DNA of 23,221 nt from a virus, in the IMG/VR virus record IMGVR_UViG_3300030106_005545, positions 1-23,221 of that record. One strand, given 5' to 3'. This document shows positions 3,617-19,635 of this stretch, piece after piece. Position numbers and translations under genes: made by a program. The first letter of the stretch is position 1. Each line of letters starts with the position of its first letter. A model generated the notes under the pieces. It was not told the origin of the DNA. It searched no databases and was given only the letters and a program-made list of their open reading frames with translations.

Positions 3617-3951
3617 TGCCGGTGCGCTCTGGTGTTGACGCAGTCGGGCCCTACTATCAGTGGGGATCCGCCAAGCGCTATTACTATCTGCGCGGGTCGC
3701 CGCGATCGAAGCAGATGGCACGACGCAAAGCCGAACGCCAGGGCGCAGCCATTGAACGACGCGAAGGCGGTGGACGCGTGATGGTTCCGCCGTCGTTGCG
3801 TGAAGTCCTGGGCGACGAGATCAGCCGCAACCGCCTGCGTACGCTTGACGCATGGTTCCGGCGTCGACCCGAATCAGAGCACCATCGGCGAGGGGGCCCA
3901 GCTGTTCAGCGTTGGGTCACCCGAACCGCAGCAGCCTTGCCACAATACTAG
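3616..3951 (+). CDS. Small basic protein between portal and scaffold, function unknown
   Basis: A 111-aa, very basic protein starting on the last base of the portal stop (TGATG), so translation is probably coupled. The N-terminus has an aromatic run, YYQWGSAKRYYYLRG, followed by arginine- and lysine-rich helix. I recognise no domain. Its place between portal and scaffold is where head-assembly or head-protease genes are often found, but there is no visible Ser, Cys or Asp protease motif. It could be a small head or nucleic-acid-binding protein; that is inference from charge and location. Confidence 0.7.
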   Translation: MPVRSGVDAVGPYYQWGSAKRYYYLRGSPRSKQMARRKAERQGAAIERREGGGRVMVPPSLREVLGDEISRNRLRTLDAWFRRRPESEHHRRGGPAVQRWVTRTAAALPQY

Positions 3952-3960
3952 GAGAGCACC
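3951..3960 (+). promoter_or_regulatory. Conserved ribosome-binding 10-mer GGAGAGCACC
   Basis: An exact copy of the start-site 10-mer that recurs through this genome, one base before the scaffold-like ATG. Other exact plus-strand copies lie at 5648-5657 and 8609-8618, with a shortened form, AGGAGCACC, at 81-89. GGAG is the SD core; the AGCACC tail is not explained by pairing with the 16S rRNA end. Confidence 0.8.
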
Positions 3961-3961
3961 C

Positions 3962-4525
3962 ATGTCCGACGAAACTACGACCCAGCCTGCAGCTTCTGTG
4001 GAGCCGACTCCCAAAGCGACGGAAACCTCTGTCAGCTATGACCGGTTCAGCGCGGTGAACGACGCCAGGCGCGAAGCAGAGGCGCAGATCGCCGAACTAC
4101 GCGCCCAACTCGAGCAGGTCGTGCCAATCTTCGACAAGGTTGAGCAGCTGTCGCAGGCCTTGCAGGCCGAACGCACGGAACGTCAGACTGTCGAAGTGTT
4201 GGCCCATCACGGCATTGGTGACGCCGATTTGCGCGAACTCGTGCGTTGGTGCTACGACCGATTGCCGGACGATGGCCGACCCACCTTCGGCGACGCCGTC
4301 GCGTCTTGGCGCAATGATCCCGAAGCTGCGCCACTGGCGCTGAGGCCTCACCTCCGTGCGCCGTCGGCGCCTGCTCCGGCTATGCCGAACAGCAATGCTG
4401 GTGCGCTGCGCCAGCCTGAAGCCAATGGCGCATTGCAGGTTCGTACGGATGCCGGGTCGCTTGATCTGCATCGCCAGCATCGTGACGCGATCTTGCGGTC
4501 AATTGGTATCAATCGAAAAGATTGA
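3962..4525 (+). CDS. Putative capsid scaffolding protein
   Basis: A 187-aa acidic protein immediately before the major capsid gene. The N-terminus is low-complexity (Thr, Ala, Pro, Glu). Residues about 30-80 form a strong predicted coiled coil (AQIAELRAQLEQVVPIF and following). The middle is helical, the region near 130-150 is proline- and alanine-rich, and the C-terminus is short and basic, ending HRDAILRSIGINRKD. An acidic coiled coil with a basic C-terminal tail just before the capsid gene is typical of scaffolds, whose tail binds capsid subunits. The start is set by GGAGAGCACC; an upstream in-frame ATG at 3800 would run inside the preceding gene. Call by architecture and position. Confidence 0.75.
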   Translation: MSDETTTQPAASVEPTPKATETSVSYDRFSAVNDARREAEAQIAELRAQLEQVVPIFDKVEQLSQALQAERTERQTVEVLAHHGIGDADLRELVRWCYDRLPDDGRPTFGDAVASWRNDPEAAPLALRPHLRAPSAPAPAMPNSNAGALRQPEANGALQVRTDAGSLDLHRQHRDAILRSIGINRKD

Positions 4526-4636: not shown

Positions 4637-5560
4637 ATGGCGACCATCGCGTCCCCTTACAAGTTCAGCCTGATGGACGGCAATCTGCGTCTGGCGGCTA
4701 TCCTGCACAACGAAGTCAGCTTGCTTCTGGCTGACCGCGCGAGCCTGCGCAACCATCCGTCTATCGTGAACTACGGCAACATTGCCGGTTCCGGTTCCGA
4801 AACCATCCGTGTTCCGCTGCTTGGCGTTGACGGGTACGACCTGATGGCCAGCACCAACGAGGCCACTGCGCCTTCCTCGGCTACTGCGCTGACCTACCTG
4901 GCGCCTGAAATCACTGTGGCTCGCTTTGCGCTGCAGCGCGCGATCAGCGACCTTGCGCAGATGACGAACAGCGGTGGCGGGCCTTCCCTGGACATCCTGG
5001 TGCAGGACTTCGCTGGTGCGTTCGAAATGACCGTCACGAGCCAAATCTGTGCTTTGTTCGGCTCTTTCAGTAATTCTGTCGGATCCGCCACAGTGGATCT
5101 TTCCGTCGATGATTTCTTCGCCGCTGTGTTCCAGCTGGAGCAGAGCAACGTTACCGGCAAGCCGGTTGCCGTTCTGGCGCCTGTCCAGGTCAGCGACCTG
5201 CAGAACAGCATCCGCCAGGAAGGTGGTGCGCTTCAGTACATCCCGGCGACCCAGGCCATGCTCGAGGCCAAGGGTCAGGGATATGTTGGAGAATTCGCTG
5301 GCGTCGATATTTTTAAGTCGGATAAGGTCGCCACCAGTACCGGTCGACAGGGCGGTATGTTTGTGCGTGGTGCAATTGGCTACTGTGAGGGAAGCATGAC
5401 CGCTCCGGCTATGCTTGGATCCGCCGTGCAGGCCAATGGACCCGTCGTCATCGACATCGATCGTTCCTTCGGCGATACTACCGATTTGATCGGTAATGCG
5501 TATTTTGGTGTCGCCGAATTGCAGGACAGTATGGGTGTCCTGATTGAGACGGATGCATAA
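4637..5560 (+). CDS. Major capsid protein
   Basis: A 307-aa protein following the scaffold, with the size and pattern of a HK97-fold major head protein: an N-terminal helical arm (KFSLMDGNLRLAAILHNEV), then glycine- and serine-rich loops, a long-helix region around residues 95-135 and a beta-rich C-terminal half. Conserved-looking segments include GSGSETIRVPLL (E-loop-like region) and VAVLAPVQVSDLQNSIRQEG. No N-terminal protease or scaffold domain is fused, consistent with a separate scaffold gene. It has its own SD and a 111-base leader, as expected for the most abundant product. The fold family is inferred from pattern and position. Confidence 0.88.
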   Translation: MATIASPYKFSLMDGNLRLAAILHNEVSLLLADRASLRNHPSIVNYGNIAGSGSETIRVPLLGVDGYDLMASTNEATAPSSATALTYLAPEITVARFALQRAISDLAQMTNSGGGPSLDILVQDFAGAFEMTVTSQICALFGSFSNSVGSATVDLSVDDFFAAVFQLEQSNVTGKPVAVLAPVQVSDLQNSIRQEGGALQYIPATQAMLEAKGQGYVGEFAGVDIFKSDKVATSTGRQGGMFVRGAIGYCEGSMTAPAMLGSAVQANGPVVIDIDRSFGDTTDLIGNAYFGVAELQDSMGVLIETDA

Positions 5561-5574
5561 TACGCAATAATCGT

Positions 5575-5636
5575 CCCCCATCGAGGGGGCGAACTGTGCG
5601 GTTTCCGGTGCTCTCCGGCCCATAGTTCGTCCCCTC
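5575..5636 (+). ncRNA. Structured RNA element with an anti-ribosome-site loop after the capsid gene
   Basis: Two competing hairpins are visible. Hairpin A pairs CCCCC (5575-5579) with GGGGG (5585-5589). Hairpin B is a 16-bp stem (5583-5598 with 5621-5636, two G-U pairs) that reuses the same G-run. Hairpin B's 22-nt loop contains GGTGCTCTCC (5607-5616), the exact reverse complement of the ribosome site GGAGAGCACC at 5648-5657 before the next gene. A CCGG/CCGG mini-stem would present TGCTCT at the loop tip. Pairing the loop with the downstream site would make an H-type pseudoknot that hides the SD. There is no U-tract, so it is not a standard terminator. The pairings are read from sequence; the regulatory role is inferred. 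Confidence 0.6.
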
Positions 5637-5647
5637 ACCTTCCTACA

Positions 5648-5657
5648 GGAGAGCACC
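5648..5657 (+). promoter_or_regulatory. Ribosome-binding 10-mer GGAGAGCACC with upstream perfect complement
   Basis: The SD for the gene at 5661, spaced three bases from the ATG. All ten bases can pair with GGTGCTCTCC at 5607-5616 in the preceding structured element. Confidence 0.8.
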
Positions 5658-5660
5658 AAA

Positions 5661-6305
5661 ATGGCTGTCACGCTGCAACCAACAATCCCCGTTCAACAGT
5701 CCGTCACCGGACCTGCGCATCGCATCAAGGTACAGGGCATCACGCGCCCGATGTTCACCTTTGTGTGGCATCCGAACCGTGGATATGAACTGCTCGACGG
5801 CAAGTTCCTTCCGATCTTGGAACTGTTCCCGCACGCACCGGGAGTCAACAACGTGCGCAAGAATGGCGACGCGACGTATGCGCTTAGTCGCCAGATGCAA
5901 AAGGGCTGGGTCGTTGTCCCCTCGTCGGCGGCTACGCCAGACGACACGCCGGACAAGGGTCCGGGCTATGTGCGCGCCTGGCCTGGTGACCGTGGGACGC
6001 ACCACGAACACGCGTGGATTACCTACACGGGCAGTCATGGTCGCTGGACTCGCCAGATCCATCATGAAAGCTATGCCGCTTGGCGGGCCAAGCTGCTCGA
6101 GCGCGGCGTGTTGCCGTCCATCGACGCAGCTGGAATCGAAAACCTCCGCGAACAGATGCACCGGTCGCGTGATCAGTTCGCCGGACGCGCGGACGTCAAC
6201 CCGTACGCCGCATCCAGGCTGAAGCAGATCCAAACCGAACTGGCCACCTTTGAGGAAGCCGCCAAGGCTGCTCTCAATCCCCGTCGTCGCAAGGCCTCGA
6301 AATGA
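5661..6305 (+). CDS. Head-region protein of unknown function, after major capsid
   Basis: A 214-aa protein. The N-terminal 60 residues look beta-rich (TVxVQ-like strands, then MFTFVWHPNRGYELLDGKF). The middle has KKGWVVVP-like strands and an aromatic motif HAWITYTGSHGRW. The C-terminal 70 residues are helical and basic, ending NPRRRKASK. I do not recognise the family. Its place after the capsid gene and before connector genes suggests a head-completion or minor capsid role. Translation is probably controlled by the structured region just upstream, whose loop is complementary to its ribosome site. The stop overlaps the next small gene (ATG inside AAATGA). Confidence 0.8.
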   Translation: MAVTLQPTIPVQQSVTGPAHRIKVQGITRPMFTFVWHPNRGYELLDGKFLPILELFPHAPGVNNVRKNGDATYALSRQMQKGWVVVPSSAATPDDTPDKGPGYVRAWPGDRGTHHEHAWITYTGSHGRWTRQIHHESYAAWRAKLLERGVLPSIDAAGIENLREQMHRSRDQFAGRADVNPYAASRLKQIQTELATFEEAAKAALNPRRRKASK

Positions 6306-8608: not shown

Positions 8609-8618
8609 GGAGAGCACC
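8609..8618 (+). promoter_or_regulatory. Conserved ribosome-binding 10-mer before the tail chaperone
   Basis: Exact GGAGAGCACC directly against the ATG at 8619, with no spacer base beyond the 10-mer. Confidence 0.8.
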
Positions 8619-8978
8619 ATGGACCATCATCAGATTGGTCAACATTCGATCACACTCGTTCCACCTCGAAGCATGGCCGTCAGATGGGAAATCTTCAGCC
8701 TGGGCGCTCATTCTTCGTTGCGTGCGAGTGCCGCTGCTTTGGCGGTGTGCTGGAAGGGACCAGGCAAACCCAAGGCCACGCTCGAGCGTCATCAATGGAA
8801 CGTCGGTCGTTGGGCTGGCGCCGTCCTCGACGAGCTGCTGACGCGCGGCGTTCCTCTCGACGAGATCGCCAGCGTGGGAGCTATGGCCTTTACAGCGTTG
8901 TCAGACGGTCTGATGACGGAGGACGAGGTTGTAGAGACGGGAAATGGCTCAAGCGCGGAGGCGCCCTCGAGCGCGTAG
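8619..8978 (+). CDS. Tail assembly chaperone, short (zero-frame) product, gpG-like
   Basis: A 119-aa product between tube and tape measure, the place of lambda G. It is helical through residues 40-105 (SAAALAVCWKG, WNVGRWAGAVLDELLTRGVPLDEIAS) with an acidic, serine-rich tail. Known role of the family: it coats the tape measure and recruits tube subunits, and is absent from mature virions. Near its end lies G GGA AAT (8939-8945), a slippery heptamer in the right phase, so a minority of ribosomes should shift -1 and make a longer protein. Excellent SD upstream. Confidence 0.85.
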   Translation: MDHHQIGQHSITLVPPRSMAVRWEIFSLGAHSSLRASAAALAVCWKGPGKPKATLERHQWNVGRWAGAVLDELLTRGVPLDEIASVGAMAFTALSDGLMTEDEVVETGNGSSAEAPSSA

Positions 8979-19608: not shown

Positions 19609-19635
19609 GAGGTTGGGTGCTCTCCGTTGATTAAT

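Follow-up and report, generated by a model that had tools for sequence, protein, structure and literature searches.

The uncultured virus IMGVR_UViG_3300030106_005545 is represented by a record of 25,247 bases, of which positions 1 to 23,221 were analysed and are referred to here as the window. The late gene order of siphophage DSL-LC06 parallels that of the record, and the product of the major capsid gene gives tblastn matches to the annotated capsid proteins of DSL-LC06 and HTVC026P; no capsid homologues were found in GTDB genomes. The late genes and structural features that bear on the element described below are as follows:

3962-4525, + strand: scaffold-like gene, 187 aa, just 5' of the capsid gene, named from its position and synteny with DSL-LC06
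4637-5560, + strand: major capsid gene, 307 aa, with the element in its 3' UTR
5575-5579, + strand: C-run proposed to form a competing fold with 5585-5589
5583-5636, + strand: hairpin, intergenic, between the capsid stop and the adjacent gene, with a 16-bp outer stem, an inner CCGG stem and a UGCUCU apical loop
5661-6305, + strand: adjacent gene, 214 aa, ATG at 5661, directly 3' of the capsid gene and kept there in relatives
8619-8978, + strand: tail-assembly-chaperone-like gene, 119 aa, named from position and weak fold similarity only

A profile search with the scaffold-like gene returned no significant match, and a fold search with the adjacent 214-aa protein found nothing in the PDB and a single match, to an uncharacterised marine virus protein. 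In DSL-LC06 a reverse-strand HNH endonuclease gene (L033:3250-3669) lies right 3' of the capsid gene, the place held by the element in relatives.

The outer stem of the hairpin is formed by arms at 5583-5598 (GAGGGGGCGAACTGTG) and 5621-5636 (CATAGTTCGTCCCCTC), which pair over 16 bp (14 Watson-Crick and 2 G.U) and enclose a 22-nt loop at 5599-5620. Its fold has a z-score of -3.6 relative to dinucleotide shuffles, none of 200 being equally stable, and ensemble prediction gives the outer stem a pair probability of about 0.86. The same ensemble extends the hairpin inwards through a CCGG/CCGG helix and leaves only the 6-nt UGCUCU apical loop single-stranded; opening this inner part is predicted to cost about 5.7 kcal/mol, and any pairing between loop and leader must compete with it. 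An earlier note on this DNA had described the 16-bp stem, the 22-nt loop and a perfect 10-base complement of the loop 31 bases downstream, and all were found as it stated. Its proposal that the element switches between two folds is poorly supported, because the competing hairpin has an ensemble probability of about 0.025 and relatives L002 and L004 have lost the C-run. Two other candidates were rejected. The hairpin is followed by ACCTTCC, with no U-run, and is absent from the terminator-like sites listed for the window, so an intrinsic terminator was discarded; a possible promoter, TTGAGA-16-AATAAT at 5544-5571, has its -35 box within the capsid reading frame, and relatives L002 and L034 do not preserve it. 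The Mu-gpT-DE RNA is located downstream of Mu-like capsid genes; an Rfam 15 search with the present element gave no match at the gathering threshold and none at E up to 1.

Part of the loop is complementary to a sequence that recurs just upstream of several start codons in the window:

5607-5616, + strand: anti-leader loop sequence GGTGCTCTCC, invariant in the closest clade (clade A) and changing with the leaders in other clades
3951-3960, + strand: target leader GGAGAGCACC of the scaffold-like gene, exact complement of the loop
5648-5657, + strand: target leader GGAGAGCACC of the adjacent gene, exact complement of the loop, 31 nt downstream
8609-8618, + strand: target leader GGAGAGCACC of the tail-chaperone-like gene, exact complement of the loop
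19014-19023, - strand: early-gene leader, 11-nt match to the loop
19462-19471, - strand: early-gene leader, 11-nt match to the loop
19616-19625, - strand: copy of the leader motif on the early strand; the sole ORF behind it has 27 aa
19871-19880, - strand: early-gene leader, 11-nt match to the loop
22196-22205, - strand: early-gene leader with one mismatch, GGAGAGCACT, a near-complement of the loop

Counting one-mismatch forms, the window contains 10 copies of the leader 10-mer where 1.75 would be expected, and none of 100 shuffles reaches that number of copies. Three copies are + strand leaders and five lie on the early strand (four exact complements of the loop and one with a mismatch); one is the loop's own complement, and one, mismatched, falls inside a late gene. 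The 10-nt match of the loop to the adjacent leader has p = 0.0007 against shuffled leaders, and among 164 hairpin candidates in the window (perfect stem, at least 8 pairs) this hairpin alone has a match longer than 7 nt to the three late leaders. Duplexes between loop and leaders are predicted at -21.7 to -24.7 kcal/mol. The match to early-strand leaders, which the earlier note had also pointed out, extends to 11 nt where window early genes carry CAACGGAGAGCACC, and the same early leader motif recurs, as CAACGGAGAGCA, before three early genes of a 30-kb relative. The 27-aa ORF behind the copy at 19616-19625 is possibly a gene for a small membrane peptide.

Relatives of the capsid gene were found at 44 IMG/VR loci (33-91% identity), which provide 37 distinct intergenic regions and are referred to as family 1. 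A strong hairpin lies 3' of the capsid gene in 35 of the 37, and none was found there in L068/L069. Compensating changes in the stem, which the earlier note had named as a check, are demonstrated in the alignment of clade A (8 sequences): 99.4% of cells are paired when the structure is taken as stem plus loop-leader pairs, five stem pairs have changed on both sides, and the covariation score was reached by none of 500 shuffles. Many stem pairs in this clade are G.U when read on the late strand and would become A.C mismatches on the other; the late-strand RNA is therefore the structured one, and a reading of the element on the opposite strand was rejected. Since no U-run follows the stem, the clade A hairpin is not an ordinary terminator. 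The element is almost certainly a conserved RNA. An AT-rich clade (L028, L044-L049, L051, L059, L066) has another layout 3' of the capsid gene, with two hairpins, in which GTCGGTTCC has three mutually exclusive partners (the upstream arm, GGGACCGAC and the leader GGATACCGAC); this arrangement looks like an attenuator-type switch.

The loop does not stay constant across family 1, and the leaders change with it. In 17 of the 37 distinct regions loop and leader match over 8-11 nt, through five different leader motifs; co-changed motifs (GGAGAGCAC, AGAGAGAGAGC, GGAGAACAGC, AAACAGGA and GAAGGACG) account for about half of the distinct cases. The pairs are these:

Clade A: loop GGTGCTCTCC, leader GGAGAGCAC(C)
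L037-L040: loop GCTCTCTCTCT, leader AGAGAGAGAGC
L041: loop TGCTCTCTCTC, leader GAGAGAGAGCA
L043: loop GTGCTCTC, leader GAGAGCAC
L058: loop GCTGTTCTCC, leader GGAGAACAGC
L061: loop TCCTGTTT, leader AAACAGGA
L063: loop CGTCCTTC, leader GAAGGACG

Weaker matches of 6 nt occur in L029 (CCTCCG) and L052-L057 (CTCCTG). When the match of each loop to its own leader is summed over 11 clades, the total is equalled in none of 100,000 between-clade permutations, and the joint change of loop and ribosome sites, another check proposed in the earlier note, is thus established at the level of sequence. No strong loop-leader match was found in L060/L062/L064, L050 or L067, and about half of the distinct relatives are without one. 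In L029 the hairpin interior GGGCAGTCCT matches the leader of the capsid gene itself over 10 nt, which suggests capsid autoregulation in that clade.

Comparison of the hairpin interior with the leaders of about 20 late genes in every family 1 relative demonstrates that the match is restricted to few genes. In clades A and B three leaders, those of the scaffold-like, adjacent and chaperone-like genes, match at 8-12 nt, and nearly all others at 3-7 nt; the scaffold and chaperone leaders had already been named as possible loop partners in the earlier note. The scaffold leader of L001 reads GGAGAGCACC-TTG. Distal leaders often match over a longer stretch than the adjacent one: the chaperone leader of L058 matches over 12 nt against 10, and the distal leader over 11 against 8 in L061, 12 against 11 in L037, and 11 against 9 in L035 and L036. 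Matches to the scaffold leader are short or absent in L041, L058 and, in the second family described next, L018.

This second family, a siphovirus group found by a pattern scan, carries its element 3' of the major tail protein gene. It is unrelated to the first: when late proteins of the window were compared with it, the tape measure protein alone gave a match, and a weak one (E = 0.005). Another match from the first pattern scan, L024, looks like chance. The second-family hairpin is followed by a tail assembly chaperone gene (phrog_313, E 1e-12), and eight relatives have distinct loops, with the loop-leader pairs TGCTCTCC, TGCTCTCCTA, GCTCTTCC, GCTCTC, TTGCTCTCT, GTCCGT, TTGTCCGTT and TGCGCCT; 6 of 40,320 permutations beat or equal the pairing of each loop with its own leader. 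The scaffold leader is also matched in two of these phages. One is the L078 phage, in which the loop that matches the chaperone also matches the leader of the head scaffolding gene (phrog_206, L089) over 10 nt. In the other, L104/L108, the two matching leaders belong to the chaperone and to a coiled-coil gene just before the capsid gene, the latter over 6 nt. The motif stands twice in tandem before the chaperone start in L018, L080, L101, L104, L105 and L119, and both copies co-vary with the loop. Some of the motifs, such as ACGGACAA and AGGCGCA, are not Shine-Dalgarno-like, so the match is not accounted for by a loop of the generic anti-Shine-Dalgarno kind. The co-change in both families bears out the earlier description of a riboregulator-like element whose loop tracks shared ribosome sites.

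In L079 an inserted cassette of four reverse-strand genes (L079:3510-5570) follows the hairpin of the major tail protein, and the tail chaperone gene lies beyond it, 2 kb from the hairpin; all the same, loop and leader have changed together, to GCTCTTCC / GGAAGAGC. Similar cassettes lie 3' of the tail tube gene in Guernseyvirinae. The major tail protein of L018 (L018:3449-4569) reads as two ORFs of 176 and 169 aa where relatives have one of about 389 aa, the result of an insertion, a frameshift or an assembly error.

Hairpins are found at the same places, after capsid and major tail genes, in lambda, HK97 and Guernseyvirinae, with small loops, and the loop-leader device is absent from the cultured Guernseyvirinae Bas71, Snoke and Jersey. 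Eleven further loci (L139-L182), together with the Pseudomonas phages Aurca01 and Cruim01, have a tail-tube hairpin with the loop ACGCC and a tandem GGCGTGGCGT before the chaperone. The match between the two is 5-7 nt, with a weaker candidate pair AACGCC/GGCGTT in Aurca01, and some of these hairpins have U-runs; these phages may, on this weak match, be a third lineage.

The reading that we consider likely is that the major structural gene carries in its 3' UTR an antisense hairpin, which represses a small set of genes through loop-leader pairing. The element would be encoded in cis, within the major structural gene's message, and would probably act in trans or over long range. Its long, stable stem would present a loop complementary to a leader motif common to a few genes, and pairing would cover the ribosome-binding region and lower initiation on those genes: scaffold, the gene that follows the capsid, tail assembly chaperone and, perhaps, early genes. 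With the build-up of capsid (or tail tube) message, synthesis of helper proteins, which are required only in limited amounts, would be kept low. A shut-down of early-gene translation by the same element is possible. From the comparative data we infer the pairing in cells, the repression and an action mainly at a distance. A point against this reading is that, on a full-length late transcript, a single loop would have to serve several targets.

The earlier note had placed the pairing in cis, in a pseudoknot that blocks the next gene. In its purely local form, this explanation has the loop pair with the adjacent leader only; the resulting H-type pseudoknot would free the next gene from its coupling to capsid translation, and the other leaders would be no more than similar ribosome sites. 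The loop does complement the sequence immediately 3' of the hairpin. In most members of both families a matching leader follows the hairpin at a distance of 20-40 nt, and the linker lengths could permit such a fold. The restriction to the adjacent gene is weakened by distal leaders that match over equal or longer stretches, by scaffold leaders that match from upstream of the structural gene, by the joint change of all leaders of a set with the loop and by L079, and we regard a purely local device as unlikely. The longer distal matches and the co-changed target of L079 favour pairing in trans or over a distance.

Two further explanations were weighed. If the hairpin were a 3'-end, processing or terminator structure of the mRNA, as after the structural genes of lambda and HK97, the loop complement would be incidental; model phages do often have hairpins at these positions and long stems could be RNase III sites, yet their small loops (UUCG, GAAA) match no leader, the co-change found here goes far beyond chance and clade A lacks a U-run, which makes this account highly improbable. 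A phage RNA-binding regulator might instead bind the leader motif, or the motif might serve a specialised mode of initiation, with the loop titrating or freeing the leaders and hence activating rather than repressing them. The tandem motifs of the second family and the departure of some motifs (ACGGACAA, AGGCGCA) from the Shine-Dalgarno sequence are in keeping with this, whereas no candidate protein was seen, and repression is the simplest outcome since the loop matches the ribosome-binding region; activation by this route is thus very doubtful.

The proposed mode of action resembles that of Staphylococcus aureus RNAIII, whose C-rich hairpin loops 7 and 13 pair with the ribosome sites of coa, spa and rot and block initiation (PMC2837412). 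In both cases several mRNAs have a common signature at the ribosome-binding region, and the pyrimidine-rich loop of a stable hairpin is complementary to it. RNAIII, however, is a separate host regulatory RNA, whereas here a phage structural gene bears the hairpin in its 3' UTR and the targets are phage genes; nor is the loop fixed, as it co-evolves with motifs that are sometimes not Shine-Dalgarno. A leader motif common to a subset of phage genes is also known from Cluster K mycobacteriophages, in which the conserved SAS/ESAS motif lies just 5' of the start codons and about half of the copies have a nearby inverted repeat (PMC3203893). Those repeats occupy the non-structural half of the genome, with inverted repeats at each target and a variable spacer, whereas here one hairpin 3' of a structural gene carries the complement of the leaders. 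The 13-bp GGGATAGGAGCCC repeat of SAS/ESAS, with inverted repeats at each start, was not found in the window, where the motif is GGAGAGCACC and its complement lies in one hairpin only. Small and antisense RNAs such as lambda OOP, aQ and c4 likewise exert base-pairing control inside phage, and the parts of a review of them that were consulted (PMC12197685) describe no capsid- or tail-gene 3'-UTR hairpin controlling assembly factors. The hairpins of lambda, HK97 and Guernseyvirinae share the genomic positions of the element and differ in their small UUCG/GAAA-type loops, which match no leaders, and in their frequent U-runs. Such an element was not found described in the literature searched, and to our knowledge the genomic design is undescribed.

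Scaffold and tail chaperone proteins are made at low levels relative to capsid and tail tube from shared late transcripts, a difference for which ribosome-site strength, frameshifting and protein feedback provide most of the explanation. We give about an even chance to a broader proposition, in which the most abundant structural message (capsid or tail tube) of several unrelated tailed-phage lineages doubles, through its 3' UTR, as a trans-acting regulatory RNA. A single hairpin loop would read a phage-specific leader tag on the scaffold, the tail chaperone and sometimes early genes, switch them off and so determine how much helper protein is made relative to structural protein, with tag and loop co-evolving as a private code. 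In two unrelated families the loop co-evolves with the leader tags of just these helper genes, which points to a simple control of the ratio by RNA. Such a control would be predictable from sequence and, if loop and tag are swapped as a pair, could possibly serve as an orthogonal riboregulator.
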